From Marasmius tenuissimus (Eukaryota; Basidiomycota; Agaricomycetes; Agaricales; Marasmiaceae): 64,000 nucleotides of DNA. The translations under genes were made by a program, and so were the position numbers. Within the stretch, counting starts at the first letter, position 1, and each line of letters opens with the position of its first letter. The stretch spans positions 248,001 to 312,000 of the forward strand of contig JAQOTA010000054.1 in the NCBI GenBank assembly GCA_029532415.1, written 5' to 3'. The notes below the pieces were generated by a model, which saw only the letters and a program-made list of their open reading frames with translations, searched no databases and had not been told where the DNA came from. Below are positions 17,618-63,221 of this stretch, piece after piece.

Positions 17618-17764
17618 TTAGACTATTGCTCCCTTATCTCCCGGCCCTTGAATCCTCAACCACCCGTCTTCCCCAAGAAAGCAATTGTTGATGGTCTTGG
17701 CTTGATAAAATTGCTGATTCCCGTCGATGATTATGTTCTCTTCACAACTTAAGGTGGGAGGCAT
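17618..17764 (-). pseudogene. Family A relic: lone exon 1 (A1)
   Basis: An ATG at 17764 opens a frame of 48 codons, then TAA-type sequence stands where the other copies have a GT donor. The segment contains NIIIDGNQQFYQA, matching the exon-1 motif of the intact copies (GD-I-I--GKQQF-QANG). The length of 144 nt before the stop is exactly that of exon 1 in A2, A4 and A5. No exon 2 was found downstream, so this is a stranded first exon. Confidence 0.7.
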
Positions 17765-20700
17765 GATTGTAAAAGCGTTACACAAAGAACGGATGAGAGA
17801 AGAGATGGGAAGAAAGGCAACGGCGACTCGTATTCTAGAGCTGGGGTTCACTATCGCGTGATGAATCAAACCAGAAGTCAAATATATTTGGCTCACTTCG
17901 GGGGTCTGAGAGTGTACACTGTACAGTGACTTTTGACCGTCCAGATCTGCTTCCCTAAGTCATTTGTATTCAGTTGTGTTAGCCTTCCTGTTAGTAAGAT
18001 CGATTCCTTGGGTGACAGTACCAGGTCTGATGCCCAAATAATCTCCCTTGAATACTTATTCTGACTCCCGAAAACAACTTTCTGACATGCAAAGTGATCT
18101 AATAGTCGTCACGTTCGCTATTCAGTCGACAATTGTTGATATACATCGTGGGTGGAGCGGGTCAGTGAAGCTGGAACGTGAAGTTGAAAGAAAAAGACCA
18201 GCATCAATAAACAATCTTACTAACACTTGAAGCATTGTTGCAAGTCCAACTCGGTGCCGTTAGCAACGACCAGGAACTCACAGACGCGTATATGTATTCA
18301 GACCAGCCTTTTCGATAGTTGGCCTGAGGTAACAATACCAGCACGTTCGGTATTCTCATTGAGTGCGCGCATACCATAGGGGTGATGATAAGTCTATTCG
18401 TTCTAAGTATCTCTGGTGACTAACGTGGATCTGGATATGGGTGTGAGAAATGGCTTTGGGGACACGATCATATCTACCTGCAATATCACAAACGTTCCGT
18501 TCGGTCTTGAATCATAGGAACAATATGGACCGCCGCCGGTTGTGCCAGCGAGTATCTCCACACCGTGATTCTCGGTAGTTTCCGTGGTCGCAGAGAGACC
18601 CATCCGACGGTTCAAGTCATGCAGTTCAGGAGATGGCGCGCACAAAACCGATAGCCGGGGATTCGTGGAGGACCTGTACAAAGGAATCAAGCACGTCGTC
18701 GCCGATCCACCAATCCAAGTGTTCGGGGCGGGTGATAGGAGATTCGCTTGTGATCCAAGAAGAGGAACGAGGGCGTCTCGATGTAAAGATACCAGATACG
18801 TCCCTAAGGGAAAGTATTTGCCGTGTGTTCATCCCTGGAAGGTAGAAACGAAGAGACAAAAGATCCAAACACGCCAAGCAGGGTACACGAACAAATCGAC
18901 AACGACGGCTCGGAACAAGATGTCATGAGAATGTAGGACATGAGCTCAGGCTGAGCAGTGTCCATATCGGCGTGCCAATCGAGAAGCGGAGGCAGTCCGT
19001 GCGCAAAGGGGGAGACAGGCCCGAGCTAAGCATGGCTAAACCACCAAAACCTCCACAGCAATTCAGATACACCCGCCTAGCAGGCATGAAGTGGTAGCAG
19101 ATGAGAGAAGAGTAGTGATGGAAGGATGTCGATGAGCATGTATGGAGGAGTATGCACGGAAACACCGGCTAATAAGACGGGAGCGGATGGCCGGTCCCGA
19201 GTAACAGTAGCCGTGCTTCATGGCGAGATCCAGGAAGAAGTGGGGGGTTCAAAAGTCAGGCAAATGAAGCCATAAAAGAGAAGCGAGTTGGGAACACCGG
19301 GTCTGTATCCAGAGCGATTACTATTGAGAAAGACGAGATTCCAACGCCGTGTCAACATCTCTGGTGCCGAACAGAGCAGGGCTGATGAGGAACTTGAGAC
19401 TGGGCTCGTATGGCGAGTTAGTGACCCGCTTCAAGCGAGTGAGGGGAATACAAATAAGGGATAAACAGAACGACGGTCAAATCAACACAGACAAGATGAG
19501 TCATTCTCTCGAAACCCGTTCGTCTTGTGCCTTCAGGGATTCCAATGGTATTTGGAGTCTTCTCGTTGGCTGTTGACGAGTCCTTCTAATGCAGTATTCC
19601 GAGTGGTGGCCGCGGTGAGGAAATCAGTCAGTACTAGTTTCGAGTCATATGGACGAAACATGCACCACAAAGCCCTCGAAGCCGAGGCAAAAATGAAGAG
19701 GAAAGGATGTCTTGGTGGAAATTAAAATGCCTATCGGCCAAAAAGAGTTGGGTTGAGCTCACCCAAGATTCCATATCCTACTACTATCAACCTATACTCC
19801 GCTTTCTCTCCTTCGAAGCACATCGTCTACTGAGACGACGATCAGCCTGTGGTTATAAACGTAGAGCCAAAATAGCCTCACCATCAGGGTAAATCGAGGG
19901 AGTATTATGTATTTTCATGATTTTATCTTCGTAGTGGGAGTTAGCCTGGAGGCGGGCTCGCGGAACATGGGCGTTCGGATGCAAGAAGAATAGCCGGGAC
20001 ACCGCCACCGGCAAGGCTCCCTTTCCGGCCAACGTTCTCTTGTTGGTTATATCTTGCCTCTGAACCATCACCACCGCGAGCTGCAATGAGATCTCGGCCT
20101 TCCTCGTGGCCTCGAAAGCTAAGCAATCGCTCATGTGTATGATGACGGAACGTGTCTCTCTCTGTCTTTTTCAGCTTTCTTCGAGATCACTCAATTTCGG
20201 GCAGGTTTTTTTCGGTTAGCTCGTGGGTCAAAGAGCATTAGAAATCGACCGGACGATGTTGATTTAGACCGCCGTCGAGATTATGGTCGTTTTCAGGGAA
20301 CCGGTTCAAGAGGGTGTCCATCGCATTAGACGCAGAAAACATGCATAGTTGCTACGGTGAAACCTGGTAAGTCGTTTGGATGATACGTCGATACTGACTC
20401 AAGATGATTTTCCCGTTCGTTCATGCACCTGTATATTTTTGACCGTTCGCTACGACTCATAATTGAGCGAATAGGAAGCAATCGGCAGCATCTTATGTTC
20501 GGGGAATTGGCATGCAATTAAGAAGGGTTTATGCGCCTCTAAACTCGAATGTGAAGTGTTAATGGCTGTGATGAATTGCTCCGGACATCTGATGACTTGT
20601 GAGTTATTCTAAGCTATGTGTAAAAGGCTCGAGCTAACGCAGGCTCCGTACACAAAAACTGTTGTTTCTTAGTATACCATGGTAGTGAAGATAAAACAGG

Positions 20701-23700
20701 GAATGTGTTCTTCCGGATCTTCGAGAGAGCGAGGTATGCCCGTAGGACCAGTTTTCCTCGAAAAAAGGAACACTGATTCACTATAGTCTTTGATCGGCAG
20801 TCCTTCCTTACTAGTGACTCTCAGTGGCCAAACAATATCTAGTAAACGACAAGGCACATGAGCCCTTCGTTCACTTCCAAGTGTTGCCTACTCCTCAGAA
20901 CCAGTTGATAGCAGTTGCTCGAGAACGGCGTCAAGCTCGTGGCCAAAACCTAAGTCAAACCTATCTTGTAGCTCTGACCCACCAATTGTTACGCAGGAGA
21001 GGGCAGCTTGCTGCTTCCTGAAGTGGCAGATACAACGTATTTCCGCCTAATTCCCATCGGCTATGCACTTCCCACAATCATCATTGATCAGTGCCGACCC
21101 CCATACCACGCTCGTCGACGCTCAGTTGCAAGTTTTGAGAAAGAGATGGCCTGCTCAGGACACATACATCATCTTGATTGCCCCATCCGGGCCTCTGATA
21201 CCGTCCTTGTACGATACAGCAGTTTCAACCCAACAAGATATAGCTCAATGGTTCGTTTGGCTTTGTATCCTGCGCCAAGGCTCGGCCTCCCGCACGAATG
21301 GGAAAATATGTCACTTTCCCTTGGGATCTCTAACGCCCAATAGGATCATCCCAAACTGCGCGCATGACGACCCTTCTCTATGATTGTTCCCAACGAGACC
21401 AACGGGATGTTCGCAATCTAGTGGCCCAATTACTTGTCCGAGGCCTCTGTACCTTCAAACACCCGTTGGACATCAATCGCGGGTACCCACTGATCTCATT
21501 CACACCGTCTGTAGTACTCCACACGACCCATTTTTTTCTTTCGCTGTATGTAGCGTATTGGTGGTCTCGACCTCCCCCGTTGTTATCGTCCAACGTTGGG
21601 GCGATAATTCCAGCAAAAATTTGGGCACTTTCTCGGAATCTGCTTCGGGTTGCGACCGACAGATAGCAGGCGCTGCTTGGCATATACCGGTATTCGTAGT
21701 GAGGGTAAAGGCTTGAACGAAATAAGTGCTGCCGGAGCCGAGTGACTTTGCAAACGTTCGGGTATTGTGAATCCCAATTCGACTGAGTGATTGTCACTGT
21801 GGGGGCCGGGTAGGTCATTTTTCGACCTACTGATTTGACCTACCAGAGGTCAGTATCCAACCAGACCATGGGTGATCCGTAGGTCACCTTACAACCTATA
21901 CACCCTAGGATGATTAATGATCTATTCTGTAACAAAACACCTACAGCACTTTTGACACCGCTGGGGCACTCTTAGGTTACTGATAGGTTGTTCAAGAGGC
22001 TAGCTGGGGCCTTTCCTCCGGTCCTTTCTGTTCAGTGCGCAGTAGTCATTTCCAATGCACATATATTAAAAGCAGGTACTATATCTATTGTACGAGACAG
22101 AACCGGGAATATACAGGTCACACAGTCACACTAAGCCCAAGATAGGTTAACTAACATATTGTGTTCGAGAGAATACGAAGTGCTAGACAGTGTATTATGA
22201 GTCAGCTCGAAGAAGAAAACAGAGGGTTGACTGTCGAACATACCTGTTAATTAAAGGCGCCCACCCATCTCGATTCTCGACAGTAAAATCCAGCTCTTAG
22301 TACACCCGCCCTCCTCTTGTGAATTGAATCTAAATGAAAACAACAATTAGTTGCTGTAGCTCAGAACCGAGGACCCGAAGACCAGACTCAGAAAGACCGC
22401 AAAGAACCCGAGAGAAGTGATCTTGAGCATTGTTGAGGACATTCTTGACTAACCTATTGAGGCGAATCTGCAATTTGAAGTGGCCTTGAGGTCATCACAG
22501 CGGGAAGCAAGGGGGGAAATTGACGGCGTTGGACGCGCTGATCGGCGTGAGCTGGCAGTTACGGACCACGGTAGACCCGAGCCCAATGGCTTGCGGGATT
22601 ACTAAGAACTGATCAGTAGGAGCTCGGCAGATGCCGAAGGACTTGGAGGTCACGCAGGCTTGGATCAACGGGGACCTTCACTCCATGAGCTCCCCAACTC
22701 GCAAACCCCCACAATCTTTGACATAACCGGACTATATAAGGTACCTATGTAGCTATGAAAGTCATTTGGAAGAGTTGTACGGAGAGCCGGCGAAGCAACC
22801 TAATGGCCAACCTACCTTCGGGTGATCGGCATAGGTTGTCCAGGAGGGTCCAATTTCGGCATCAACCTACAGCACCCGAAAATAGGTTGAGTGTGACATT
22901 TCACCCCGGTCTAGGTTGCTCGACGACCAAAGGTACGCCCATAGTGCATGTGAGACAACGAAGCCCTACAAACAAAGAAAGCAGGATCTGACATCCCAGT
23001 GCTGTTGATAGCAGGCTTGCCGGTCGGAAATAGCCAAAAAATGAGCATAGGCAATCATCGATTCCGGGCGAAGAGGAATGTGGGATGTTGAGGTATGTTT
23101 TCACTTTTGTTCGCAACTCTAGAGTGTACTACTGACTTTATCTCTTTGTGCCAGATCATCTGAATGAGGCAGAACGAGGGAGGACGCAGAATTCACGATG
23201 CTGCAATTGATCCATGATTCAATTGTCCTTACATCAATGATCAAGGGTCCTCAGAGCAGCATAACCTTCGTCTCGCCTCAATGACAACTGATACATCAGA
23301 TGGGGCGGTAAACCCTACCCCGTATAGGTCATTATGTTGATGTGTAGCATGCTCGCGGACTCGGTACATGAGAAAATCGCTCAGGCTTCCGATCGTTGGA
23401 TCTAGACTCTTCGTAGAGACGTGGTGATTGCGAGTTCGGGCGCCGTCGCGATGAATATCAATGCTGTACTCCACACCAATAGATACTATTCACTCCGGAA
23501 TTCGCTAGAGAAACAAAATTGGTAGTGCGTCCGGGAGAAAAGTTAACTTGGCAACTCTTGACCGACTCCTTTACCGAAAGTTACCGGAGGGGAGGAGAAA
23601 AGAGGAAAATTATTATACGTATTATGGTTATATATACAAGAAAAGATCAACCACCAACTGCATTCATGCCGACTTCTCATCCCTCGATCGCTGACCTACT

Positions 23701-24272
23701 AACCAGAACAATATGCGAACGGTGCTCGAGAGTAAGATCACCGCAATGAGGCCAATTACCTCACACAGTTGGGCGAGAGCCTCGGTCAGTGTTACGGGGC
23801 GGGTATCCACATGCTCAGGCCATGACCGAGGTATTGAAACATGGGAACCTACTGATATCACATGTGGATTAGCGAGCAATATGAGCGCTCCGGCACGACT
23901 CACCTGTTCCATACAGGTCTTGTGAGGGATTGGCTGCGTTCGGCGTCTCTCGAGGGTCATCGGTGTCTGGATAGTAAACAGTAGAACTCAGCAAACAAGA
24001 AAGTAGGTTGAGATATAAGATATGATAAATAAACACCTTTAGTCAATGCGATTGCGTTTTCCGACTGGGCGAGCTCGATCGTGTTATCGGAATCTGGTGG
24101 ACGGCGTCCATTGAGGAATTCGAATTTGCGGATACACAAATTTCGGACTCACGTTCGGAAGCTACAGTCGAGGTTGGAAGTGTATCGAGCGTTGCCTGCT
24201 CAGCAATTGGGGCCTGGTCATCTAAACCCGGTTCAAATCCAATGTAAGTTTCGGCTATGATTAAGGTATAGA
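17765..24272. other. Long unassigned region, no confident gene
   Basis: About 6.5 kb contains short frames only. Protein-like fragments occur at 18403-18877 minus, 20669-20857 minus, 21063-21383 plus and 21378-21818 minus, but none has a motif I can name or a splice chain I trust. A GGCGGTG-type module near 19945-20060 (minus) resembles sequences at 47395 and 49724. Scattered CAACCTA/TAGGTTG words occur between 21800 and 22930. Confidence 0.35.
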
Positions 24273-26448
24273 TCAACAGGGCTCACTGTCCGACTGATTC
24301 TCTCCGAATAGCTCTGCCAGAGAAAAAGACTCGGCTTGGAACCAAATGTCGTGAGGATCATCTTGTAAGGTGGGTGAGTAGGTGTCAAGAAATATTTCGA
24401 CAATGCTACTCACCTCGAACCAGTTCGGGGTAATCGTGATCTCGAGCGTATTGTTTCCCATCTAGGCTGTAGCCCTTGGTGAGGAGGTGATCATGAATAC
24501 AATTATACATAGGGTCAAGCCAGCGCGAGCTAATCCCCAGTGTTGCATCGAGCTCAGGAACGCCCAACTCCTCATAATCTTCAATGAGAACCACATCTTG
24601 TCCGTCTGGATCAAACGACCAATAGAATAGCCTGTTGGGGAGAGGATACCGTATGCAATGCATACCGTTGATATGTTCGACCGGAATAGGTGGAACAAAG
24701 AGGTATAACGGAGTGGGTTGTGCTGCTGGGTCATGGCAAAGAGTGCCCGTGACCATGAAGTGTATGCTGTTGAGGAACACTAAGGGGAGGAGTTGTATTT
24801 CAGTTTGTGTGGGGATAAAGGTGGGAGAAATCCTTGCCTAAATCATTGTCTGGAGTGGTAGTACTGTGAACAAAGCTCGACGACTGGCTGAGGTAGGCGG
24901 TAGAAAACTTGGCTGGAAGCCGCAACGAGAACTGTATCACAATATCGCCCGGACTGCAGAACTTGAGATCAACACGAGACGGCACTAGTAAGGTCAGAGT
25001 CGCATCTGTGGGTTGTTGTATGCACAGACCTTGCTTGGAGTAACTTGCTTGATTCTTAACAGTGTGACTGTGGCAGAACCATTCAGGAGAAGGAAGCGAA
25101 GGGAAATGTGCCATGATTCCTTTGCGACAGTGGATGACGGCCCCGAACGTCAGAAATCCATATCGGACGAAAGTTGAGGGGTCTCTGAACCATCCAACGA
25201 TGAATGTAAACAGGTACAAAAAGTCGCCAAACTTTTGCTCCAACCAGATGGTAACCTCATCTTCGTCGAGTTGTGGAGAGGACTTATGGTGGAGGGATGG
25301 TGGTTGCGCGGTATTCAAAAAGTATAGATCCATCGGTGGTGAAACAGAGGCCGATATGAGGTTGTACTGCCAAGAACGAGTTCCAAGATTGAATGCCCAG
25401 TGGCTATGCTCAACCAAAACCCCCTTTTGTATCCCTTCAACATCGGTTGAGAAAGTGAGAGTCTGGAGATTCAAGCCGAGGTTGTTGGACGTCTTTGAGA
25501 CCTGTTATACCACCGTTATCAGCTGGCAACAAAAGAAACTGTTGTACTGACAGGCAATTCCATCTTCAAGGTTTTGTACGAGCACAACTAATGTCACTCT
25601 CAGCCAAACCATGAGCCAGAAGGCTAAAGCATTGAGCGGACGTACCCAGTGGTATGCAAAATAGTAGGACACCACAGAGTTTGCATGGTATTGAGTGAAT
25701 AATCCAATTGCGTGGGCTAGCTCTGTAATTTGGTCAGTTCGCAGTGCTCGTTCCGTTACTGCGATATGTTCGTACTGTCGTGTGATATAAAGGCCGGCAT
25801 ATCACAAAGACACAGCCCAAACACCTGGGCGAGTAAGGGCGACCTATGCTGACGCTTGAGTGCCCGTACATTCGAACTTGCAGTTGTATGACCTACGTGT
25901 GTGAAGGCAACGCATCATGTATCCGTTGCCACATCTAGAAACGAGTTCTGTTACTGCGTGGTCATTAAAACGTTAGACATATCTCACTACTGCGACCGCT
26001 TCTTTGTCTCCCTTGTTTTCTGGCTCAAAGGTGAACAACGTAAACTTGCATGTGTTATAGCCGACTAATTCTGTATGGAACACCTTTGTGCGAATCTTCA
26101 CCGTCTTCACCTCTATACGTGGTCGAAATGGATTCGTTGACTTGAGCTTTTGCTCGATCTCCATTTCGATGCTGCCCGAGTAGGCCTGGCTGCGTAGGAT
26201 GATATCTCCCTGCAGAATTTCCCTGAACCGACGTTGTATTGGCTGTTTTGGGTTTGGACGAGGATCATTCACCTGTAAACGGCGGGAGGATACGTAGAAC
26301 GCACTGTCAACCTTTCGTATACTTGCCTTTGAACACCCAATGGCCCTTCATCGCTAAGGTAGTAATTATAGATATTTCCGTTGGCCTGTTGGAACTGTTG
26401 CTTTCCCCTGATGACTATTTCCCCGGAGGATCCAAAGGCAGGAGACAT
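24273..26448 (-). CDS. Family A protein, intact copy A2 (551 aa)
   Basis: Nine exons keep phase: 26448-26305, 26242-25988, 25934-25897, 25843-25776, 25722-25646, 25501-25030, 24984-24838, 24779-24414 and 24361-24273 (1656 nt). Exon 1 carries GEIVIRGKQQFQQANGNIY. Exon 2 carries a kinase-N-lobe-like strand set (GDIIL, TVKIRTKVFHTELVGY, FTLFTFEPENK). Exons 4-5 hold the LFG/PALI-HDE-like stretch. Exon 6 holds WAFN, SWQYNL, FGDFLYL and FLTFGAV. Exon 8 holds the signature CIRYPLP-RLFYWSFDP. No kinase catalytic loop is present, so a pseudokinase-derived role is only a guess. Exon 6 is 84 nt longer than in A3 and A5. The intron after exon 7 starts with GC. An alternative splice could extend the C-terminus. 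The cellular role is unknown. Confidence 0.75.
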
Positions 26449-28268
26449 TGGTGTTGTAGTGCCACTGGCGAAGGCGGAAGCGGAGAGGTGGTGAGAATAA
26501 CGACGGAGAGAAGGGAAAATGTGAGCCTTTTGACATAATTAGCGCGACTGATGTTGAGCGAACGGCCGGCCGAAGTACCGTGAATATGATTGCTGTATGC
26601 AATTAAGCTGTGCAAGTACCGTAGGGGCGTCTAAAAAAAGGAAGGGTAGTCGTCGTGAGAAGTTGGAATAAAGTCTAAATCCCTCAATCCGTCGTCCCTT
26701 GATGTATACTCACAGCAACGGCAAGAGATCTCACCGATCCGATCGGTGTTTCATTCACACAATTACATGTGCATGATACTCTCGAATACGCACAAAGGCA
26801 ACAAGAGAGTGGAGATTCGAAGGGAATGTATATCTTACTAAGGGAGACATGGCTTGAAATTCGAGGACTCGTTTTACCCTTATACGCAATCTAGACAAGA
26901 GTACGTACAGTGATAGGCCCAGAACCCAGTACATGCGGTGCGCGAAACCTATGTCTTCTTCTTCCGACACATCTCAACCGTCTGATTGATTTTCCATCTA
27001 TGCTTCATCAAAATTCTCAACCCGAGACGACACGTGATCCTGACGTTTGTCCACAGTCTCTATCATATTCGAAGCTTGAAGGGCCTGTATGCCTGCGTCG
27101 AGACCATCAGCCCCGAGTGCCGATTCGGGGATCAAGCTGTGGTTGATCTTATGTCTAACTAAAGTCTGGTTACACACTACACAAGTCCGAAACCGAGAGA
27201 CCAGTCGAATGGAGGGATAAGCAAAATCTGCGCTGCCACTTGACCTAATCCCGACGATGCCGCCACACAAGTCTCGAAGATTTCAACTTCGGGACGTTTG
27301 TATGAAAGAATGTTTACGGCCCTTTGCGAAAAGGCTGGCACACATTTTGCAGGCTGTAGATATAGGAAAATAAAATGGATGAACATAGACGGTGGTTCTG
27401 CCCATTCGCTCGATGTTTCGGACAATTTACGGGAGGGGCTGAGGCACTTTTTGAGGAGCGGTCGTAGGTAACTGTAGCTTCGGAGATGTTTGATGTGGAT
27501 TCGGAGGTGTTTGGAGTGGATTTGGAGATGTTTGGGGTGAACTCGGAGGTGCTTGAAGCGGGTTTACTGCCGCTCGTATCTGTTCCCCTCGCTCAACCCT
27601 TTTTGATTCAATTTTCCATATATCACATCTTCCCAGCCTGTGCCATCATTTTTGCGAAGGGCTGTAATTTGCCGCAAACCGAGATAAATGATAAATGGAT
27701 GAAACTGAAAGGACATTTGAAAAATAAGGTTGTCCAGCTTGTGCCACAATATAAAACATTCTTGTTTCCTCTCACTCAGTGTAGATACCATGTACACACA
27801 AACAGACTACTATTGTGGCCCAACATGCATAATGATCATGATGTATAACTCAAACCTCAAATCCCCATAAGTCCTTATACAGCATTTGTCCATTATCGCT
27901 GGATCACTGGTTTCCCCACTTCAAGCTTGAGCGGAGGTACCAATACACACAAAACTTGGTGCGTCAGGCTATGATTGCCACGATCAGCGTTCTGATCTTG
28001 CTTAGCTGGACGAGGGCGTCAGAGGGTTTAACAACTTGAATGCGGTATCCTTACGCTGTGAGCATGGTTGAATCGTGGGGTCGTATGCTGGGTCGAATTG
28101 GTGTCAGCATGAAACTCGGTGTTTATGCGATCCAACGAGCTCACCTGTCGCACGGAGGTTTTATACTTAGGTCAGCGGTTTTGTCTCTCTTTGAAGGAGG
28201 AGTCGTTTCTAGAGAGTGTGCCCGATAATTGAGAAAAGAAAGGCGATGCGAATGGTAATCGGTAGGTA
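26449..28268. other. Intergenic between A2 and A3
   Basis: Apart from the minisatellite at 27479-27562, I see only short frames (26755-26970 minus, 27177-27425 minus, 27486-27848 plus) without recognisable domains. The sequence immediately upstream of A2 should hold its promoter, but no clear TATA box was identified. Confidence 0.35.
27479..27562. repeat. 21-bp minisatellite, four units
   Basis: Four tandem 21-bp units follow the pattern TTCGGAGGTGTTTGGAGTGGA with a few changes. The length is a multiple of three, so open frames cross it on both strands: SEVFGVD-like repeats on plus, Ser/Thr/Pro-rich on minus. No gene model is certain. Confidence 0.8.
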
Positions 28269-30530
28269 CTACCTCTGGTTGGTTTTCCCCCATGGTGCCA
28301 CGCCCGGCTGGGCTGTCACAAGTTGCTGTTCATTGACCGTCAGAATTGGACCTCCGCTCTCTATAAATTCCAGGCTTACGTTCAAGGGTTGAGAAAAACG
28401 CTGCGGCGAAGGATGAGGTCTAACTTCCCACTTTTGAAAGTAAAACTTGTACTCACTCTCAGGCTGTGTCTCCTCACGCAACTCGGCTATCTGGTAGTTA
28501 TGTGGATCTCCTGAGTATAATAGTAGGAGATATCCATGATTTAGAAGGCCGAAGGATAGTACTCACCGATGATCAGTTCGGGATAGCCGTAGTCGCAAAC
28601 ATACTGTTTTCCATCGAGATCATACCCCTTTGCGCACAGATGTTCCCGAATGGTCTGATACTGATATTCACGCCAGTAAGAGCTGATCCACGTCGTTATT
28701 CCGAGCTTGGGAACACCATATTTTTTCCAATCCCTCTTTGGAATTCTATTCTTTCCTGCGGGATCGAGGGACCAGTAGAAGAGTGTATCAGGGAGGGGAT
28801 AACGAACACAATACATGCCGTTGATATACTCGACAGGAATGGGCGGCACAAAGAGATAAACTGAAGGGTGTTGTGTTGTAGGGTTATGGAAGAATGTGCC
28901 CCACAGAGTGAAGCTTAATCCATTCAGAAACACTGAGAAGAAGAAAGGTACGCATTAGTTAGGGTGATTTTGAATGGACAAATAGCGGATAGACTTGCAG
29001 AGGTTGCTAGGGGGGTCATTATCATCAAGCAGAAAGTTGAGGGACTGGGCGAGGTAAGCAGCAGAAAGTCGGGGAGGAGCGCGTAATGAGAGTTGTATGC
29101 CACCTCGGATTCTGCCCGGGGTGTGGAACACGAGATCGATACGATCGGGAACTGGACATTGCATAAATTAATACAGGTGATGTGTAGGTGGGGACGCGTA
29201 CAGACCTTCTTTGGAGTAACGCGCTTGGATACCAATGGTGGAACTGTGGCAGGACCACTCGGGCGGGGAAAGCGAAGAAAAATGAGCAAGGGTACCTTTT
29301 TTGGGGTGAGCGATGGTCCCGAAAGTCAAAAGACCATGTCGGGCAAAATCTGAGAGCTGCTTGGTCCACCAAGTGGGCGATGCAATCATGCACAAAAAGT
29401 CACCGAAGTTATGCTCCGACCAGCCGATGATCTCGTTGATGTCGAGTCTCGGATGACTTCCCTTATTGAGTGGAAGAAGCAGGGGGTCGTAGAAGATGGG
29501 GCTCCGCGGTAGTGAAACGGAGGCGGAGGTCATGTCATATTGCCATTGTAGGCTTCTGAGATTGAATGCCCAGTCCTTCAATTCGCCCGAAATCTTTTAC
29601 GCTACATATCAGTATTCCCCGGCCAGTTGAAAATAGGTAACTGACCGGAATCGAAAGTGTCTTATCGGCACGCGACACTTCAATTGAGCACATCTAGTGA
29701 TAATCTCAGGTCAGTCATGATCTCAAAAAGCGGAACGTACCCGTGCATAAGTGAGGTAGCACAGCACAACCGGATCTGAAAGATACCGACTTCTGAACTC
29801 TTGTCCGTTGGCTAGCTCTGTCGAAATATCATTTTATTCAAAACCATCTAGAATCCCCGTACCATCGTGCATTATGCATGCTGGCATGTCAAGCCGAGCC
29901 AATCCAAAAAGCTGAGTGAGAAACGGCGACCTATAATTGAGTATTATTTGTCTGTTCATTCCAACTCAGAAATATGACCGACCGGTTAGTCGCACTCTGG
30001 TAGATTTGTCTCCATATCTCAGATATCGCGTCAATCGAAGAAAAATTGCGGGGGGCTGCGAGTTAGGACTCACCAATCTGATGATTTCCCTACCATCTTT
30101 GTGCTCCGGCAGAAACATGATCACAGTGAACTTCCTTCCAATGTACTGCACAAGTTCTGCGGTGTAGACCTTCTTTTGAATCTTTACAATTCTTGCAAGC
30201 AGGCGGTTTCGGAAGGGATTCGTCATCTTTGTGAAATGCCCGATAGACAATCTTAGATCTTCCGACCAGACCTCCTTCATGAGAATGATTTGCCCGGGCT
30301 GGATTTCCTCGTAACGGCCTTGCATCGGCTAGAAGAGACACGTTCGACTCAATAATTGCGAATAAATCACAGACACGCACCAGAGGACTGATTTTATGCT
30401 TGCTCCAACAATTCGAAGAGCATGCACCGTGACCACAGCAGTGGTAAACATTGCCGTTGACCTGGTAGAATTGCTGTTTTCCTTGGATGACTATGTCTCC
30501 CGACGACTGAAACATGAGGGGCGTAGACAT
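28269..30530 (-). CDS. Family A protein, intact copy A3 (577 aa)
   Basis: Nine exons join in phase: 30530-30381, 30328-30074, 30017-29983, 29930-29863, 29817-29741, 29593-29206, 29151-28999, 28932-28567 and 28510-28269 (1734 nt). Exon 1 carries GDIVIQGKQQFYQVNGNVY followed by a Cys/His-rich tail (CCGHGACSSNC) not seen in the others. Exon 2 carries GQIIL, IVKIQKKVYTAELVQY and FTVIMFLPE. The middle domain has WAFNL, QWQYD, FGDFLCM and GLLTFG. The C-terminal domain has YCVRYPLP and LFYWSLDPAG. The start at 30530 gives MSTPL, like MSTTF in A5. The last exon reads about 50 codons beyond the other copies, or may splice again at an internal GTGAGT. The intron after exon 7 has a GC donor. Function is unknown. 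Confidence 0.75.
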
Positions 30531-35665: not shown

Positions 35666-35696
35666 ATGACCACACATTTCAAATGCTACAGAGACA

Positions 35697-36018
35697 TGAT
35701 GAGCCGGCATGACGCCTAGCGCAGAGGACTACAACATGGCTACACTACTACTTACCAGAGAGGAGTTTAGAGAGGTAGAGGCGAGACGTAGAAGCTCAAG
35801 CACACTGTAGATTCATGTAGAGAACTACGAGCTTATATACATGTAGAGACTATAGTGAATACCATATAAGGACGATAATAGAGATTGTACATATGTTCAT
35901 AAGTAGAAATGATAAATGGAACAATAGTGAATGCATTTTCCCGCATAATACAATGGCGGGAAGTATGAACCGGGACTTCGGATATACCGGGATCTAATTA
36001 TAGTCCACAGATTCAACA
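35697..36018 (-). mobile_element. Solo copia LTR in exon 1 of A4
   Basis: A 322-bp LTR in minus orientation has perfect 5-bp target duplications AGACA (35692-35696 and 36019-36023). No internal sequence remains, so it arose by recombination between the two LTRs of a full insertion. It introduces a TAG shortly after its left edge in the reading frame of A4. Confidence 0.95.
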
Positions 36019-37555
36019 AGACATAGTTATCAGCGGAAATCAGCACTTCCACCAAGCGAATGGCAATATATACAACTACTATGTCCCGAATAGCAACACT
36101 ATCGTCTATGGAAAGCAGACCGGCGAGACATTGATGGTATGTTTATACCTTGTTCAGGATTTGTCCCGCGTTGAGTATAGCTCGCTCAGCCGCATCAAGA
36201 CCAATTCGACGAAGTCCGACGAGGCCACATCATACAGCGAGGACAGGTCTCATCGGAAGACATTGAGATGGTTATTCAGCGACCCCTCAAACAAACAAAT
36301 CCATTCCGAAATCGTGTAGTCGCAAGGACCATCAATATCAAGAAAAAGCAGTATACCGCCGAACTCGTTCAATACAATGGACGAATGTTTACTGTTATTG
36401 TATTTGAGCCCGAAAACAAGGAGGACAAAAATACAGTCAAGATGGTGAGCCACACGAAAAGTGAACTGAAAGCGTAACTCATTGGATTGTTTAGATATGG
36501 AAGAAGGCCTACGAAGCGGCGTCTACGTATATGTATGTTAGATCTTTGCCCGTGGCGACAGCCTCTGCATCGATAATCAAAGTCTTGGTGGACAGGTCGC
36601 CGCTGCTCACTCACCTTTATGGACTGGGCAGACTCGATGCACCAGCATTGATCATGCACGATGGTACGAGATTTCTCGTGCTCAAAATGGAATACAGACT
36701 AAACAGATTACAGAGCTGGCTAGTGGGCTGCGGATCAGTAATCAATATTCCGATGACCAAACAGTGAAGTACTACCTCATGTACACACACGTATGTTCGG
36801 CTTTGAGTCTCCCGGCATCGCTGATGTCGCTCTTAGCTTGCCTCCTTTGTCGCCTTGCGTGATGACAGGACTCTTTCGAATCTAGTGTGTCTCGAGTCGG
36901 GCAACCTTATTGCTCACTAAATATTTCCAGGTCTCACCCAGGTGGGAGAATTGGGCCTACAATTTAACTACCCGTTCTTGGCAATATGATCTTGCCTCTG
37001 CGTCTCTCTCATCTTCCAGTCCAAAAATTAATTACAATCCTGGTACACAACCCCCGCTTCGCCAAAACACACTTCCTCAACTTGACTTCAACGACATCGC
37101 CACCTGCTTTGAAGTTAACTTCGGCGATTTCTTATATCCGCATACCACATTCTTCTGGGCCACTGCTGTCGAACCAGGACTGGAGTCGGAGGCCTTTGTT
37201 GTGCATGGAATTTTGACTTTCGTACCGTCGTTCATAGCCAACAGGGGGTTCTTGCCCATTTTCCGTTTGTTCCCGCTCCCAGATGGTACTGTCAGAGCGA
37301 AACCGATGACATCAAAGCGAAATATTCCAGATCTGGTACGTCTGTTCATCCACTCGATCTTTCTTGTACTCAATGGGTGGTATAGTCACGTCTCGCGTCG
37401 ACCTATCATTTCACCGGTTCGGCAAAACTCAAGTAAAGCTCGACTTCTCATTGGGTCTTTCGGAAAAGGATCGAACGCGTTTTTGTGCTCCCTACCTTAG
37501 CCAGTCACTTGATCTACCCGTTTATGATGACCAAGACATCGGTGAGTGAACAGCC

Positions 37556-37876
37556 TGTTGAATCCGTGGACTATAATTAGATCCCGGTATATCCGAAGTC
37601 CCGGTTCATACTTCCCGCCATTGTATTATGCGGGACAATGCATTCGCTATTGTTCTATTCTTCATTGTTCTATATGCTCATATGTACAATTCCTATTGTC
37701 GTCCTTATATGGTAACTCTATTGTATTTACATGTATATAAGCTCGTAGTTCTCTACCTGAATCTACAGTGTGCTTGAGCTTCTACGTCTCGCCTCTAACT
37801 CTCTAAACTCCTCTCTGGTAAGTAGTAGTATAGCCATGTTGTAGTCCTCTGCGCTAGGCGTCATGCCGGCTCATCA
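37556..37876 (+). repeat. 5' LTR of C2
   Basis: 321 bp from TGTTGAATCC to TCATCA, with a TATA-type block (ATGTATATAAG, near 37732-37742) that probably starts the element transcript. It differs from the 3' LTR at five positions. Confidence 0.95.
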
Positions 37877-37888
37877 GGTTATGGGCCC
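37877..37888 (+). promoter_or_regulatory. Primer binding site for initiator tRNA-Met half
   Basis: GGTTATGGGCCC follows the LTR directly. It is complementary to the anticodon arm of eukaryotic initiator tRNA-Met (GGGCCCATAACC), not to the tRNA 3' end. Drosophila copia uses the same internal priming with a cleaved initiator tRNA half. Confidence 0.8.
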
Positions 37889-38145
37889 CGGTTAGCCCGA
37901 CTACAATAACGAGCGCCCCTAGGCTGCTGTCATCGGCTAGCTAGGCTAGACCTGCATGTTGCCATCGACCTCTTAATTGAGTGATCGATTTATGGCATTG
38001 ATGTACATTCTTCGACGACATCGGATCTAAAGGATCCAATGCTCCTCGTTGAGCATAGCGCCTTGATGGCTGCTCCCTGTGTTGATTAGACGCATGCTGA
38101 TGCTGTCTTTTCTAGATCCAACACCTAACCTAACCTCTTACTACC

Positions 38146-43522: not shown

Positions 43523-43552
43523 TTCGCTCAGATGCGCTTTTCAGCTGCACTT

Positions 43553-43564
43553 AGCGAGGGGGTG
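43553..43564 (+). promoter_or_regulatory. Polypurine tract of C2
   Basis: AGCGAGGGGGTG directly precedes the 3' LTR. This G-rich tract is in the expected place for priming plus-strand DNA and is repeated in the same place in C1. Confidence 0.75.
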
Positions 43565-43885
43565 TGTTGAATCTGTGGACTATAATTAGATCCCGGTATA
43601 TCCGAAGTCCCGGTTCATACTTCCCGGCATTGTAATATGCGGGACAATGCATTCGCTATTGTTCTATTCTTCATTGTTCTATATGCTCATATGTACAATT
43701 CCTATTGTCGTCCTTATATGGTAACTCTATTGTATCTACATGTATATAAGCTCGTAGTTCTCTACCTGAATCTACAGTGTGCTTAAGCTTCTACGTCTCG
43801 CCTCTAACTCTCTAAACTCCTCTCTGGTAAGTAGTAGTATAGCCATGTTGTAGTCCTCTGCGCTAGGCGTCATGCCGGCTCATCA
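43565..43885 (+). repeat. 3' LTR of C2
   Basis: 321 bp, TG...CA, followed by the target duplication CAGCC. It differs from the 5' LTR at five sites: four transitions or transversions in the first 190 bp and one G/A near the end of the TATA-downstream part. Confidence 0.95.
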
Positions 43886-44432
43886 CAGCCTCATCTTCTC
43901 GATATCTGCTATCTTCAATGAACTCCTCTAGTGTTTATCCTTGAGTTTCGATTTCGCCTTCGTGGTACTTTCTTTCGTGACCCTAGTCCAGCATTTCTCT
44001 TCGTCCCGCCCGTCCCTGTCCAGCATTTCGACGGCATGTATTGCATATGTTATCCTCTTCCGACCAACTTGTTCTACTGGTCCCTTGATCCACAAGGGAC
44101 CACCGCGATTCCCAAGAAGGATTGGAGAAAATACGGTATACCCGAGCTCGAGGTGACATCGTTGATCGGCTCGCAGTGGAACGACGAACAATACAAGTCC
44201 ATTCGGGAGTATCTACACCGTAAGGGCTACGCTATGGATGGAAGACAATACGCTCGTGACCACAACTATCCACAGCTCGTACGCAGTGGGTTTCAGTATC
44301 TTATCAGGATCCTTTAGCACCCTAATTCATTTGGACATAGGTGATCCCCACGAAGCAGGTGTAGCTGATTTGGAGGAACTGGATGCGGATGATTGGACAA
44401 ACTCTCTTCACCTTCAGTTGCTTAGTTTCTGA

Positions 44433-50026: not shown

Positions 50027-52132
50027 ATGTCGACGACCTTTTCATGTACCGGAGATATAATCATAAAGGGGAAACAGCAATTCCAGCAGGCGAATGGAGA
50101 TATCAATAACTACTACCTCCTTGATGAAGGATCCTCGAGTGTTGGAAGACGGGAGAATGAGAGGTTGATGGTGCGTTCTTTTCTCTCGTTATTCACGAGC
50201 AAGACAATGATCTTTGGGACTTAGCCTACCCAAGACCGGTTCAGAGAAATTTACCGGGGCGACATTATCCTTCGCGAGCAGGTTCACTCAGGAGAATTAG
50301 AGATGATGGTACGAAGGAGCATCAAATCCACTAATCCGTTTCGTGCCCGCGCAGCAGATAGGATAGTGAAGATTCGCAAAAAGATCTTCTGTGCAGATCT
50401 CGTAGACTTTGGTGACCGGAAATTTACTCTGGTTGTTCTTGAGCCAGAGAACAAGGAGGATACAAATGTGGTCGCGCTGGTGAGGGGTGTCAGTACGCTC
50501 TTATTTGTATGGCCCGCAATAACAAGGAGGTATAGATATGGAAACGAGTATATGAGCAAGCATCTACTTATACGTGCGCCATGGTTTCAACGGTTGCTGT
50601 TTGAATTTTGGACACCTAATGCCAATCTAGCACGGTGTCATTTACTCAGCTTTTTGGGTTGGGCCGATTTGATATGCCATCCTTTATTCTGCATGACGGT
50701 ACGGAGTTGTTGACCCAGAGATAATTGAGCTGACTGAATCTCAGAGCTCGCCGACGGACACGAGTTCGTTCTCCGATATCATGGGAATGATGTTGTGTGG
50801 TTTTACCTGGTGTACACACTGGTACGCTCAGTCTTCCGCCCGCTATCGGTCTTCAGCTGAAAGTGGCGTTAGGCATCCTCTCTCGGAGCTTTGCAAACGG
50901 ACCTGACTCTTTCATTTCCAGTGAGTGAGTTATATCTAACACTAGGTCGCTCAACATTGAATACTAGGTGTCGCTCGAATGGCGAGAGTGGACGTTCAAT
51001 ATCAAAGCCCTCTCTTGGCAGCTCGACCTTGTTTCTGCCTCCATCTCACCCCCAACTGTACCAACCTTTTACCCCCTTTCAGTTACCCCGATTCGTCAAG
51101 ATACTCCTCCTCCACTTGAAGCCAGTGAAATAATCGCCTGGTCGGAACGAAGTTTCGGCGACTTCTTGTGTTTGATAGCGTCTCTGGGTCGTGACACTTC
51201 GGAGCTGTCAGCATTCGCGCAACGGGGCTTGCTAACCTTCGGAGCTGTCGTACACCGCCAGAAAGGGATACTCGCTCATTTTCCAATAATACCTGTTCCT
51301 GAGACACGCTGTCAAAGTCTCACCACTGACATGCGAGCGAGTTACTCCAAGGAAGGTCTGTCCACTCGCCCGGGAATCTTCAATCACTAATTCCTTTCCC
51401 AGTTCCTTTCCGCGTTGAACTCTCGTTCCACACCACTGGTAGAATTCAAGGTGGCTTGTGTATCTCATTATGCCTTCCGACAGAACATAAGACACGGCTT
51501 TCAGCCGCCTACCTCAGCCAGTCCCTCAACTTTAGCCTGGACGTCCATAAGCCACACAGCAATCTAAGTGAGGGGATTCACCAGTCTACCTCCCCTTTCC
51601 AGCTCATAATCATTCACCCTCAGTATTCATCAATGAAATAAGCTTTGCCCTGATAGGCACGTTCCTACAGGACCCCACCACGCAGCCCATGCCGGTTTAT
51701 CTTTTTGTCTCGCCCATCCGTGCCGAGCTTATTGACGGCATGTATTGCGTACGCTATCCCCTTCCCAGTGACAGACTCTTTTACTGGTCTATCGACGCGA
51801 AGGGGAAAGATATGATTGTGGAGGGAGATTGGGAGAAATATAACATACCTCGATTGAGAACCGAGATGTGGATTGGTTTGTCGTGGAGATGGAGCAAGTA
51901 CAAGCTGACTCGGGATCATCTGTGCAACAAAAAGTATGATATAGATGGGAGACAATATGCTCGCGATCATGATTATCATGAGATGATACAAGGCAAGCGT
52001 CGTCACTCCACCAGTCTGTGTATTTCTTGACATATTTTTTTAGGGGATCCTCATGACATTCGCCCGACCGAGCTATTCGAAACTGAAGATCGATGTGAGC
52101 AGAAAGTCCCTCTCGAGGTCATAGGAGTGTAA
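50027..52132 (+). CDS. Family A protein, intact copy A5 (530 aa)
   Basis: Nine exons keep phase: 50027-50170, 50225-50479, 50536-50573, 50631-50698, 50745-50821, 50968-51355, 51403-51567, 51624-51992 and 52044-52132 (1593 nt). Exon 1 carries GDIIIKGKQQFQQANGDINN. Exon 2 carries RFREIYRGDIILREQ, IVKIRKKIFCADLVDF and FTLVVLEPENKED (kinase N-lobe-like, without the usual VAIK lysine context). Exon 4 carries LFGLGRFDMPSFILHD. Exon 6 carries WTFNIK, WQLDLVSASISPP, FGDFLCLIAS and GLLTFGAVV. Exon 8 carries YCVRYPLPSDRLFYWSID. The last intron starts with GC. An open segment at about 52158-52392 (ELAFTYESSEW) could be an extra last exon if exon 9 splices at the internal GTGAGC (52095). Its role is unknown. 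Confidence 0.8.
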
Positions 52133-52474
52133 CTCAATAACTTTAAGATCTCCTTAGTAACTCGGAGGAGGTAAATACACCCGAGGAGTTGGCTTTTACC
52201 TACGAGTCATCAGAGTGGATAGAATGTAAGAAATTTCAGATACTCAGTGTTGAAGAGCCCTTAGATTTTCTCTCAAAGCCACCTCCAAGAGCACACTCAG
52301 CGAAGATCATAACTTGGGATACATCAAAGAAGGACAGTTGGTCGGGAATACTGATTTCGATCACGGGGAGCCACAACTACCCCATGAGCTAACCGGTAAA
52401 AAATACATATAAGAACTAGCTGTTAATGATTTCAGCGCGTTTGTAGCGAAGAAAAAACAAGACAAAACCCACGT

Positions 52475-52984: not shown

Positions 52985-53055
52985 ATGCAATCCACGTCGA
53001 ATACGGGTCCCCACACCATTATAAACTCGTTTAAAGCCTGAGCTAACGGATTCTT

Positions 53056-54423: not shown

Positions 54424-54610
54424 TGTTGAATCTGTGGACTATTATTAGATCCCAGTATATCTGAAGTCCCAGTTCACTCTTCCCATCATTGTATTATGTG
54501 GGACAATGCATTCGCTATTGTTCTATTCTTTATTGTTACTTATGCTCATATGTACAATTTCTATTGTCCTCCTTATATGGTGGTTCCTATTGTCTCTACA
54601 TGTATATAAG
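54424..54610 (+). repeat. Truncated copia LTR (U3 with TATA box)
   Basis: 187 bp match the first 187 bp of the copia LTRs, from TGTTGAATCT to the TATATAAG block, and then stop abruptly. The next base is family A coding sequence. The part kept is the promoter half. No target duplication can be assigned because one side is lost. Confidence 0.9.
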
Positions 54611-56130
54611 AGCTCTTCGCGCTAGCTCGGGCTCATATGCCGATGTTTATCTTGCATGACGGTGAGCAGGCTTATTATCTTTACAATAAGCAAACTCTGA
54701 GCTACGCTGAGTCTCAGAGCTCGCCGGTTCGCAAAGATTTTCTGATCAATATATGACGAATTCAATCGTTTCCAGTACCTTCAACACACGATTGTATGTC
54801 CTACGGGCTCTTTGTGTCACGATCACCCTCAGCTGACTACAATGGTTCTCAGTGGACCTCAATGATGGCTTTGCGCGACGACAGGGCTCTAACAATCCCA
54901 GTATGTATACAACACACCCCTCTTAACTCGATTAGTAACCCTATCGAGCAGGTTTCTTTCGACCTATGGACCAACGATTGGCTGTTCAATCTCAAATCAC
55001 AATCCTGGCAGTACAATGTCCCGTCTGTCTCTATCTCACCACCCACCATCGTTGAGTACGACTGGAACTCTCACCTTCCACTCATCGGCAAGATTCCCGT
55101 TCTACCCTCAAGCAATCGGCCTCGCCCTAATATTGGCGAGATTGTCGCCCACGTCGAGAGAAATTTCGGCGATTTTCTATATTTGCTTGCTCCGTGGGGA
55201 GAGACAAGAAGCATATCACTTTCGCAGGTCTCGAGACATGGATTTCTCACTTTCGGGGCCGTTGTGGACTCCGAAAAACCAGGAATTGTCGCCCATTTTT
55301 CGACCACGCCAGCTCCCGAATGGTACTGTAAGACTAGTGACCGTGTCAACGTACAAATTCGATATTCCAAGTCGGGTAAGGCGCTCAAGCTCTGTCATGC
55401 CTCGTTTCGCTGCGCTTACATCTTTTTCACCCTCTTACTACCCTCACGGGTCGACTTGACTTTTTGCAACTTCAATACAGGGAATATCCGAGCAACCATG
55501 TACTTCTCTCTGTGACTTCCTGATAGAGACCAAAGTCGACTCCGTGCTGCGTTTCTCAGCCAGTCCCTACCGTTATACAATGCTTGCGACGATGCGTACA
55601 ATCTTGGTCCGTCCGCTGAGGATTATTTCTGCACTGCATTGTCTGATAACGTATATTTTCTAGTGTACATTGATGAAATCGGATTCTCTCTTGCGGGTAC
55701 CTTCTCCCAAGACCCGACGACATATCCCGCTCCCGTGTACCTCTTCATATCACCTAAAATGGCCTTCGAGACGATCAACGGTATGCATTGTGTACGCCTC
55801 CCCTTTAGGCCCGATACGAGTCTATTCTATTGGTCTTTTGATCCAAAGGGAATACAGCCAATTCCCGAGGAAAATTGGGAGAGGCACGGTATCCCCAAGC
55901 TAGCTACGATAGTACGAGCTGGATCGTCTTGGAGTTGGCGACAGTATGAGTGTGTCGAGGATCACCTGCGTGCGAAGGGGTATGCGACGGATGGGAAGCA
56001 CTATGCGAGGGAATATAGGTACCCTGAGTTGGTTCACGGTGAGTCGAACGTTTTATGATGTGCTACATTCGACATTTATTGATGAAATCACTCTCCAGGA
56101 GATCCCCATAACGTTCGGTTTGAACTCTGA
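54611..56130 (+). pseudogene. Family A pseudogene A6, 5'-truncated
   Basis: The homology starts inside exon 4 (FALARAHMPMFILHD). It continues with exon 5 (54718-54793, one base short of the usual 77), exon 6 (54952-55375: WLFNLKSQSWQYN, FGDFLYLLA, GFLTFGAVV), exon 7 (about 55440-55609), exon 8 (55664-56038: INGMHCVRLPF, LFYWSFDPKG) and a short exon 9 (56099-56130). Exons 1-3 are missing, replaced by the copia U3 fragment. Exon 7 lacks a proper AG acceptor and has an in-frame TGA at about 55514-55516. It is decaying, but a transcript from the LTR TATA box remains possible. Confidence 0.8.
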
Positions 56131-59900: not shown

Positions 59901-60959
59901 CAAAATGGAAAGGTAAGAAGGTAGGTGGCTTACCTCCTGAGACAGAGAAATGGTTAGTAAGCTGACTTCCCCCTACACTGCTAGCATTAAAATTGTTTCC
60001 TTCGCCTGTGCTGGGGCACATTCCAATGGTGTTTGTATGGGGTCCCAAGCCACTGTCACAGTGGGGGGTTTATACTGTCTCTCAGTCTGGCGTCTAATCT
60101 ATGCAAAGTTCTGTCATCGTCATGATGGTTACTCACGCCCTGCCTCCTCCTATAAATACTTATATTATCCATCCGTTGAAGGTGTCATAGCCTCAGTAGG
60201 ATAATTCACTCTCCAGCCCTTCTTCTATCCATCAAACGGGATGTGCTGCACCAACCCATAACATGACATGCAGGCATGCACAAGGCCCTACAGAGCATAC
60301 TGGGGCTTCCCCATGCTCAAGGAAATGGCAGAATTAAATCAGGTTTGCTTAGCCGAAGGGCAGCTGACGGGAAACACATTGGCAACACCTAGCAGTGGGT
60401 CAATCACAGCTTCCGCAATCGCCACCTTGTCGCCGCAAAGAGCTATATGCGATTGAATTGCTCGGGTCTGCCTCGTCCGACCCCATGGACAAGAGGCCCG
60501 GGGATGGCTGAGCTGGTAGAAAGAGTGCTATCTAGATATGGTACAGAGATTTGGTGCGTGTGTGGATCCAACGAACAACACTCATCTAATTTTGGTAACC
60601 GAGGCTCCGTGCGTCATGAAATGGTCAGGTGGTACGCCAAGTTCCCTAAATACATCGATCTACCGATTCATTGAACTTTATATGAAGCTCACAGCTTTTT
60701 CAACCAAAAGCGGCTTTTAAGTCTCGAGGTGCTGCATAGCCTGTCATCTACTTTGCTTTCCGGCCCTCGCTATGTCATTGCAACGCCTCCCAGGCTACAC
60801 ATCGCCCACTCTGACGGTCCCCGGGCTCCTCGCTGGGCCACCCGCGAGCAGGGAGCATGCAGATTCGGCGTATGGGCATTTGCAATATCATGTATGTACC
60901 CAACTAATCATGCGCTATAATTTGACTCGCATCCGTACAGTTTACCAGGCTTCCTCGGG
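59901..60959. other. Intergenic, divergent between two family genes
   Basis: The minus gene at 58458 and the plus gene at about 60960 diverge from here, so promoters for both should lie in this kilobase. No clear TATA or repeated element was seen. Short frames without motifs only. Confidence 0.35.
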
Positions 60960-63221
60960 CAAAGATAACCCTCATGTCTCGCATATTTTCATCCCATGTG
61001 GAGCCGTATGAATGCTTGCGAAGGGGGGCCAGCAAAAAAGACCTGTCAGCCATTAGAGTAGCACATCTCGCTAAAGCCCCCGAGCTGGGCTCGAGCACCA
61101 GCCTCCTGATATACTACACTGGAAAAGATGCAAGACAAGTGAGTACCAGCTACGTCTGTACTCGAAGATACTGCTGATATCTCTGGCCTTTCGAGGTCTT
61201 CAAACGTGATTTTGTACGGTTCGCTCATAATCATAAGTCAGTTTTCATTCCTTCGTTGCTACTTTCCTGACCTGCTTGGGACAGCGCGATGCTACTCGCC
61301 TTCGACGATTCTCCGGGAGTTCCGGTCATTATCTTCCAGGACGGTACTGAGCCTCCTTCTGACCCGATTTTATGCAACTTGATAGACTTTGATTTAGCCT
61401 TGATTCCACTCGCCAATGTCATGGAGGTGCACGGTTATTCTCGACTGATGATGTTCTACATCGACTATCATCTTCAATTTCAGACAGTACGTAGCCAACC
61501 CTGTCCATTTCATTCCCCCCAGACATCTCGATCCTATAGGAGCAAACTCGGAATTATGGAGAAACTTGGATCAATCCTCGAACCGGTGAAATCTGCACCG
61601 GAATTCCAGGGCCGAGACTCGAGTACACATGGGAAGCGTCACCCACTCCTCGAGCTGAAATACACAATTCCGTGTCACCACTGCCTATTCGGGATTACGG
61701 GAACGACAAGATTATGGTCAAATACCTCGCAGAGTGCTTCACCGACTCGACATTTCTTTCTAGCTGCTACCTGATCCACAAGCGCGACTTTGAGGTCAAC
61801 TGGCTTGAATTAACGACTGACTCGAGACTGAAATTATTACCCGGATCCGCAGTTTCGATGGCAGAACATGCGGTTATCGCGTTGTTTAGATACTCTTCAG
61901 ACCACGAGGCGTGGACAATTTGGGAGAGTAGCACTCGACCGGAGCTGTGTAGCAAGAGTGAAGAGAACATGAGGGACGGAACCAAGCGGTGGGTCGTGCC
62001 CCAAACCACCATAGCAAGCATGATTGAACACATGCTACCAGATATTCCTTTCCTAGTGCTTTTGAGAACTGGGATGAGCTTGAGTTCCGCTTCAAGTATG
62101 CCACAACCAAGAACTGGTTCAGTAATGCGGCGGCGTGGTGGCTGTCTCAAGCACCGAGCATTTTGAGACAGCGTCGTCTTCAGCCGTCTTCAGAGGACGT
62201 AGGTAAGTATTCAAATGAGTGGATTAATCTCCGTCCTGACCGGGTTCTCCTAGCCATCATCTACGGAGTGGACATAATCATATCAACGGTCCAAGACCGC
62301 CAAGTTCTAGACGGCATGGACCTCGCCAGAGACTGCAGGCCACTTCGTTCTAATCCCTCTGTTTTTCTGTTTCTGACTCCACCGCCCAGCACGTGGGGTA
62401 TCCACGAAGTAGTGTTGTGGAAGGACTTGCAGCACATCTACTACTGGTCTTTCAGTCCGGATGGATCGACTCGACTGTCAGAAGTAGAACGACAGGAATA
62501 TGGGCTTCCCCGTCTCTTGATATCCTTTACGCCTCTTGCACAAACCTTACGCCGACAAATGTACTCTTCCATCACAACGTGGCAGCAGAGTAAGAATTTC
62601 AACCCAACTACGACAGACTTTTCAAGATCTCTCGACTTTCCTACCATGGAAGTCATAGGGGCGAAGCTCCGGGAACTCCCCGAAGGTGGTTTCATGACAT
62701 TCAGCGCTTCAGGCATGATGCTGAAGAGTCCGATTCATGTAGATAATCACATAGGCCACGATGCTGCTGACAACGCCAGTAGACCCACCGTGGTCGAACA
62801 AGGGAGACACTCCCAAACCGCTAGTTTTGCTCGAAAGAACACGCCGGGTACCACAGTGCTCGCAGTAGACGATTATACTCTGCCTCATCTCGGGAATGGG
62901 TATATCAACCATCATATGCTTGGAGTTTCAAAAACGGAACCTCCTCCTCAAATTGCGATTTCGCACGATGACGATCTGGTGCCACTGTTACGGCCTCGAG
63001 AAATAGTAAGTCTCTCTGTGCCGGTAGTACCCGTGTATGCACTGACAAAATTATGTAGAACGGTGAAACTTGGCCGACACCAGAGGAGTTTATCGATAGG
63101 TTGCGTCAAAATTTTGACTTCGTTGATTCGGAAAAACATGGTATATTTTTCATTCTTCTCCATGTGATTGTGACTGAGCATCCGCTTAGGTGTCGTCTAC
63201 ACTCGACGGAGGGATGGTTAG
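60960..63221 (+). CDS. Divergent family A relative (A7), multi-exon
   Basis: Exon-like blocks follow the family A order. The first contains VAHLAKA and SLLIYYTGKDA (kinase N-lobe-like, ending at a GTGAGT donor at 61139). NVILYGSLI and VPVIIFQDG follow, then ALIPLANVMEVHGYS and MMFYIDYH (about 61364-61490). Next is a middle domain (about 61555-62000: GETWINPRTGEICTGI, VNWLELTT, HEAWTIWES). A block then ends ENWDELEFRFKYATTKNW (62091-62203). The C-terminal block (from about 62254) has HIYYWSFSPDGSTRL and GLPRLLIS. Two small last exons (63060-63143 and 63190-63221) close at TAG 63219. It lacks a clear GKQQF exon 1. The 5' end and some joins are unresolved, and so is its function. Confidence 0.6.

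Follow-up and report, generated by a model that had tools for sequence, protein, structure and literature searches.

A 64,000-nucleotide stretch of the Marasmius tenuissimus genome (assembly GCA_029532415.1, contig JAQOTA010000054.1, here C28, positions 248,001 to 312,000; "the window" in the following) contains seven intact, broken or relic copies of an unnamed gene family, here called family A. With about 261 merged loci in the assembly (71.06 Mb, 70 contigs), family A has a conserved gene structure and a homologous sister family, its intact alleles are constrained, and its copies are still being disrupted and changing in number. Our tentative reading, held at somewhat less than an even chance, is that family A is a giant group of intracellular pseudokinases, probably without catalytic activity, that evolves by birth and death, with a putative role in recognition or defence suggested by the turnover pattern. 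M. tenuissimus is reported to cause thread blight of cacao, the species limits being in doubt (PMC11053350).

Family size in the genome

A preliminary description of the window, made from the sequence alone, had proposed a cluster of seven loci. The seven places were recovered by tblastn and spliced protein-to-DNA alignment, and chance likeness is excluded by database E-values as low as 1.1e-155. The idea of a local seven-gene cluster was rejected in view of the number of loci found genome-wide. Three pieces of the intact copy A5, searched against the assembly at E ≤ 0.001, matched at least 150, 107 and at least 150 places, which were merged by order and distance (<1,900 bases) into about 261 loci on 30 contigs, a number that includes both haplotypes and broken copies and is no strict bound, as the first and third piece counts are minima, which lowers it, and genes split by insertions, like A4, count twice. 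Nine contigs with ten or more loci each hold 203 of them; 21 loci were found by all three pieces and 136 by one piece alone.

Two local patterns were seen among these loci. On contig C7 (2.02-2.09 Mb), there are four pairs of C-terminal matches whose partners are on the same strand with only about 1 kb between them, which may reflect a doubled last domain or a fusion of two copies. Several copies on contig C49 (L006, L007 and others) show two or three in-frame TGA codons in the same C-terminal match, perhaps through the multiplication of a single pseudogene lineage.

Structure of the intact genes

Intact models were obtained for A2, A3, A5 and A7, in agreement with the intact state claimed earlier for the first three. 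A2 (23667..26448, minus strand) has 14 exons and encodes 684 amino acids, exactly the sequence of the public protein PM082_016571. A3 (28054..30530, minus strand) consists of exons of 150, 255, 35, 68, 77, 48, 388, 153 and 366 nt plus tail exons. From exon 6 to the end it translates to PM082_016572, the public model of which begins only at exon 6; exons 1-5 were added in this analysis. A5 (50027..52132, plus strand) has ten exons of 144, 255, 38, 68, 77, 48, 388, 165, 369 and 89 nt and encodes 546 amino acids. A7 (60772..63215, plus strand) is a distant relative with 11 exons, and its allele on contig C55 is PM082_023406.

The lengths of 144, 255, 38, 68 and 77 nt given previously for exons 1-5 of A2, A4 and A5 hold for A2 and A5; in A4 they hold for exons 2-5, exon 1 being split in the window by a long terminal repeat (LTR). 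Spliced alignment also reproduced the 150 and 35 nt that replace 144 and 38 nt in A3. Exon 6 had been overlooked: it measures 48 nt in A5 (50873..50920, plus strand) and occupies the same place in A3 (48 nt) and A2 (36 nt), where it is contained in both public proteins. The earlier description also had no 3′ tail exons, no mention of the hydrophobic helix at the C-terminus of A2 and no estimate of how large the family is across the genome. In A2, A3 and A5, exon 6 is followed by exons of 388-472, 147-165 and 366-369 nt and then by tail exons. In each of these genes the end of exon 1 coincides with a codon boundary, which makes exon 1 a separable module. The models have GC-AG instead of GT-AG introns after exon 8 of A2, exon 8 of A3 and exon 9 of A5, with which the public proteins agree for A2 and A3.

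Broken copies and differences between haplotypes

Spliced alignment confirmed the description of A1, A4 and A6 as relic, interrupted and truncated copies. A1 (17483..17764, minus strand; also matched by tblastn) retains exon 1 and a portion of exon 2 and contains an in-frame stop. A6 (54610..56118, plus strand) has lost exons 1-3 and begins within exon 4, and an LTR remnant (54424..54610, plus strand) lies at its cut 5′ end. Three lesions affect A4 in the window. Exon 1 is interrupted by a solo LTR (35697..36018, minus strand; target duplication AGACA), exon 7 is frameshifted in the first part of the gene (36019..37513, plus strand; remaining exon 1 through exon 8), and an LTR retrotransposon of 6.3 kb (37556..43885, plus strand; target duplication CAGCC) occupies the intron before the last large exon, which forms the second part together with a tail exon (43928..44384, plus strand). 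The motifs of this element suggest the Ty1/copia type. The window has another LTR element of this type at 4385-10195 (minus strand), which is broken, with split frames and arms that are 93% complementary over 3,138 nt.

C28 (4,243,643 bases) and contig C55 (484,332 bases) run parallel in the window region with 91-99% identity in the aligned pieces, and for this reason they are taken as the two haplotypes of one dikaryon. In the C55 allele of A4, exon 1 is unbroken (144 nt) and both insertions are missing; about 7.3 kb separate the bases that match window positions 36964 and 37084, within A4. The C55 allele of A6 retains matches to exons 2-4, and a further family A copy with internal stops (C55, 393557-395615) has no partner in the window. 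The relics, truncations, LTR insertions and haplotype differences support the local birth-and-death pattern suggested before.

Other open frames lie between the copies. Between A4 and A5 there is a frame of 585 codons (45236-46993, minus strand) that has a Pfam match of F-box-like type (E 1.4e-6). Between A6 and A7, two frames (58458-59893, minus strand) probably represent one gene, the larger frame being without a Pfam match.

Selection between alleles

The two alleles of A2 differ by no synonymous and one nonsynonymous change in 684 codons. Six synonymous and six nonsynonymous changes were counted for A3 (exons 1-10), seven and seven for A5, and 11 and eight for A7. The pooled ratio of nonsynonymous to synonymous change (pN/pS) is 0.27 (Fisher p 1.9e-5; A5 alone p 0.023); thus the intact copies are under purifying selection while their neighbourhood gains and loses copies. 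Between exons and introns of A5, the divergence of 0.9% versus 1.5% is not significantly different (Fisher p 0.30).

Homologues and a sister family

Homologues were searched with A5, A7 and the protein PM082_014844 (P0067), about 8,000 candidates being scored in each search. The A5 search returned 64 proteins at E ≤ 1, which are 27-53% identical to A5, all from Marasmius, all "hypothetical" and none with precomputed Pfam domains. With A7, three proteins were found, the third of which is P0067 (E 4.2e-4), whose N-terminal motif resembles that of family A. P0067 itself retrieved at least 160 proteins, and all 120 among the matches listed belong to Marasmius. Relatives outside this genus were not present among the matches listed in any of the searches.

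The profiles of family A and the P0067 family align over 440 columns (hhalign E 4.5e-23) and agree well in the motif, from strand 3 to the hinge and in the C-terminal third. A7 was linked to the P0067 family with a profile E-value of 3.1e-24 and to family A with an hhalign E-value of 5.7e-12, the A7 profile consisting of two sequences. A 34-residue motif of the P0067 family matches at least 150 places (E ≤ 0.19), with clusters on C23, C7, C12, C28, C10, C3 and other contigs. In four such stretches from four clusters, inspected by eye and pattern, the motif is followed by a kinase-like part and a WLSQA stretch in every case and by the YWS part in three, the fourth (L078) showing none. By the profile alignment and the motif HMM described below, motif, kinase-like part and C-terminal domain are homologous and in the same order in both families. 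The P0067 family is likewise unnamed and large; it differs from family A by clusters of its own, mainly on C23 and C7, and by its canonical motif FFxNAxNFxIxGGxFxxVxGDQ. In our reading, family A belongs as one branch to a superfamily of three-part Marasmius proteins that is very large and has no name.

Domain composition and the kinase-like fold

Pfam searches with A5, the relatives of A7 and all aligned members gave no convincing family (best chance row E 0.014), so the absence of an assigned function holds within the databases used (homologues, Pfam). A sequence-profile search of the PDB gave rows at chance level, and there was no match in the plasmid collection. At E ≤ 10, no NACHT or NB-ARC match was obtained for 61 family A members, and Pkinase_fungal (FunK1) was absent from the Pfam rows for the sets of 61 and 27 members.

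The predicted structure of A2 is protein-kinase-like from about residue 50 to a point between residues 261 and 354, the structure matches bearing on residues 51-353. Residues 1-51 are predicted to be disordered, and the C-terminal domain (about 286-540) is well predicted. Kinase likeness had been noticed before as an N-lobe without a C-lobe; the likeness stands, but the predicted fold of A2 extends past the N-lobe and therefore looks like a degenerate kinase domain. At residue 119 in strand 3, where the model would place the VAIK lysine, only five of 52 sequences have lysine, and residues 226-245 contain no HRD-like run. In our reading of the predicted model, the ATP-binding lysine would be lost. 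Conserved positions of a hairpin are W241 (59 of 59), N244 (58 of 60) and residue 253, where 54 of 61 sequences have an aspartate that may be the one of DFG (A2 itself has asparagine). On this model, the kinase-shaped domain has probably lost its enzyme activity and would be a pseudokinase.

The segment WQY...FGDFL...LLTFG, formerly treated as one domain, appears in the model to be divided, with WQYD closing the kinase-like part and FGDFL opening the C-terminal domain. The latter is the best conserved part of the protein (mean entropy 1.73-1.88). Agaricomycete proteins with "YWSLDPSG..LS.E" C-termini may resemble this domain. No signal-peptide-like start was seen by eye, which suggests that family A proteins are intracellular.

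The exon 1 motif and NOD-like receptors

At E < 0.01, a hidden Markov model (HMM) of family A exon 1 recognized 27 of 30 sister loci and two of eight family A stretches, whose start lies about 1.5 kb ahead of the last large exon, so that most exclude exon 1. The HMM of the sister motif found all 30 sister loci, by construction. NOD-like receptors (NLRs) were sampled as 30 of the 72 NACHT places in the genome with flanks of 1.5 kb; the sister HMM matched none of these stretches. The exon 1 HMM had no match in the 30 stretches either, and the idea that NLRs of this genome share the motif was rejected for that sample. Five NACHT loci (L009, L018, L019, L021 and L030) have upstream N/G-rich runs, e.g., GSGxQNN...GD.V, unlike the family A motif, which may be N-terminal motifs of the NLRs' own.

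According to PMC9815663, N-terminal amyloid-like motifs are frequent on basidiomycete NLRs; one class of them has a core of 25 residues in which three positions are hydrophobic and G[DN] occurs. Family A resembles this class (NLR05/08/22/29/44) by eye in its N-terminal motif of about 25 residues with hydrophobic positions and G[DN], and resembles those NLRs in having dozens of copies per strain. It differs from them in that it has no NACHT or NB-ARC match and that the NLR stretches studied here are without its motif.

Interpretation and alternative explanations

In the proposed architecture, the protein would start with a short motif encoded by a separate exon, roughly F..A....I....F..V.G[DN]...Y, followed by a kinase-shaped domain that is devoid of a conserved strand-3 lysine and may act as a non-catalytic switch, and by a conserved C-terminal domain (YLFVPP...FYWS.DP.G). 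The hydrophobic C-terminal helix of some members may serve as a membrane anchor. Because of its likeness to the basidiomycete motif class (PMC9815663), the motif would let members of the superfamily assemble homotypically, and the many copies would serve recognition or defence. Fungal HeLo and HELL effectors similarly join a short motif to a folded domain (PMC9815663 and PMC12881547); their motif is C-terminal, whereas that of family A is N-terminal, and family A has no HeLo Pfam match. MLKL and other animal pseudokinases share the kinase-like fold without an evident catalytic set, predicted in the case of family A, and MLKL is activated downstream of amyloid (RHIM) assembly (PMC12881547). The C-terminal domain of family A is different, no four-helix bundle is evident in the family, and all kinase structure matches are close in score, so that no special kinship to MLKL is indicated.

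A number of results weigh against this interpretation. Allele changes are mainly purifying, and neither diversifying selection nor an excess of amino acid change was seen between alleles. No Pfam kinase match was obtained for the 61 and 27 members at E ≤ 10, and lysine occurs in 19 of 52 sequences at residue 114, just before strand 3. The C-terminal hydrophobic stretch is found in only eight of 64 proteins. A7 has no N-terminal motif, the sister motif HMM matched none of the eight family A stretches (most without exon 1), the exon 1 HMM matched none of the 30 NLR stretches, and the profiles of family A and the P0067 family agree weakly in the middle.

A live rival, unlikely but with a real chance of being correct, is that the copies are the noise of unequal exchange and LTR activity, a few of them being kept for housekeeping or signalling with no part in recognition. 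The many broken copies, the insertions in A4 and beside A6, the haplotype differences and the purifying selection on intact copies all fit it; plain recent duplication leaves unexplained why intact, constrained copies are so divergent from each other, with homologues 27-53% identical to A5. Purifying selection and the well-conserved C-terminal domain would also suit a developmental or mating family expanded for fruiting or hyphal fusion, not defence, which is improbable, considering that such copy numbers, pseudogenes and haplotype differences would be unusual for core developmental genes.

The remaining alternatives concern the mechanism. That the proteins are unusual active kinases, holding ATP without the usual lysine and using the conserved hairpin as the source of a metal-binding aspartate, is quite improbable: the kinase-like predicted fold and the retention of W241, N244 and the aspartate at 253 speak for it, while the lack of a conserved strand-3 lysine, of an HRD-like run and of a Pfam kinase match, together with the asparagine at 253 in A2, speaks against it. 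Very improbable is a control by NLRs that pass an amyloid template to family A via a common N-terminal motif in the manner of HET-S. NACHT genes are numerous (72 matches), several have N/G-rich runs upstream, and N-terminal amyloid-like motifs are common on basidiomycete NLRs (PMC9815663); however, none of the 30 NLR stretches matches either motif HMM, the motif of established effectors is C-terminal, and the large family A clusters have no listed NACHT place, a few stray loci lying about 2-11 kb from one (C8, C54 and C16). The pseudokinase interpretation has a more far-reaching form, which we consider rather unlikely, in which Marasmius would possess a non-NLR recognition system of several hundred pseudokinases that join to each other via a common prion-like N-terminal exon and have a new C-terminal domain for readout.

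With at least 150 copies of one exon, about 261 merged loci and at least 150 sister-motif places, the family is among the larger gene groups of this genome. It has no name and no Pfam entry, and no description of it was found in the open-licence literature. A kinase-shaped family of such size is relevant to research on pseudokinases and fungal immunity, and the presence of both alleles of a structured family in one assembly makes a role in recognition testable. How somatic incompatibility works in basidiomycetes is poorly understood, ascomycetes serving as the model (PMC8229728). If the proposed recognition system exists, its members would offer candidate genes for somatic incompatibility or for the antiviral defence of mushrooms.

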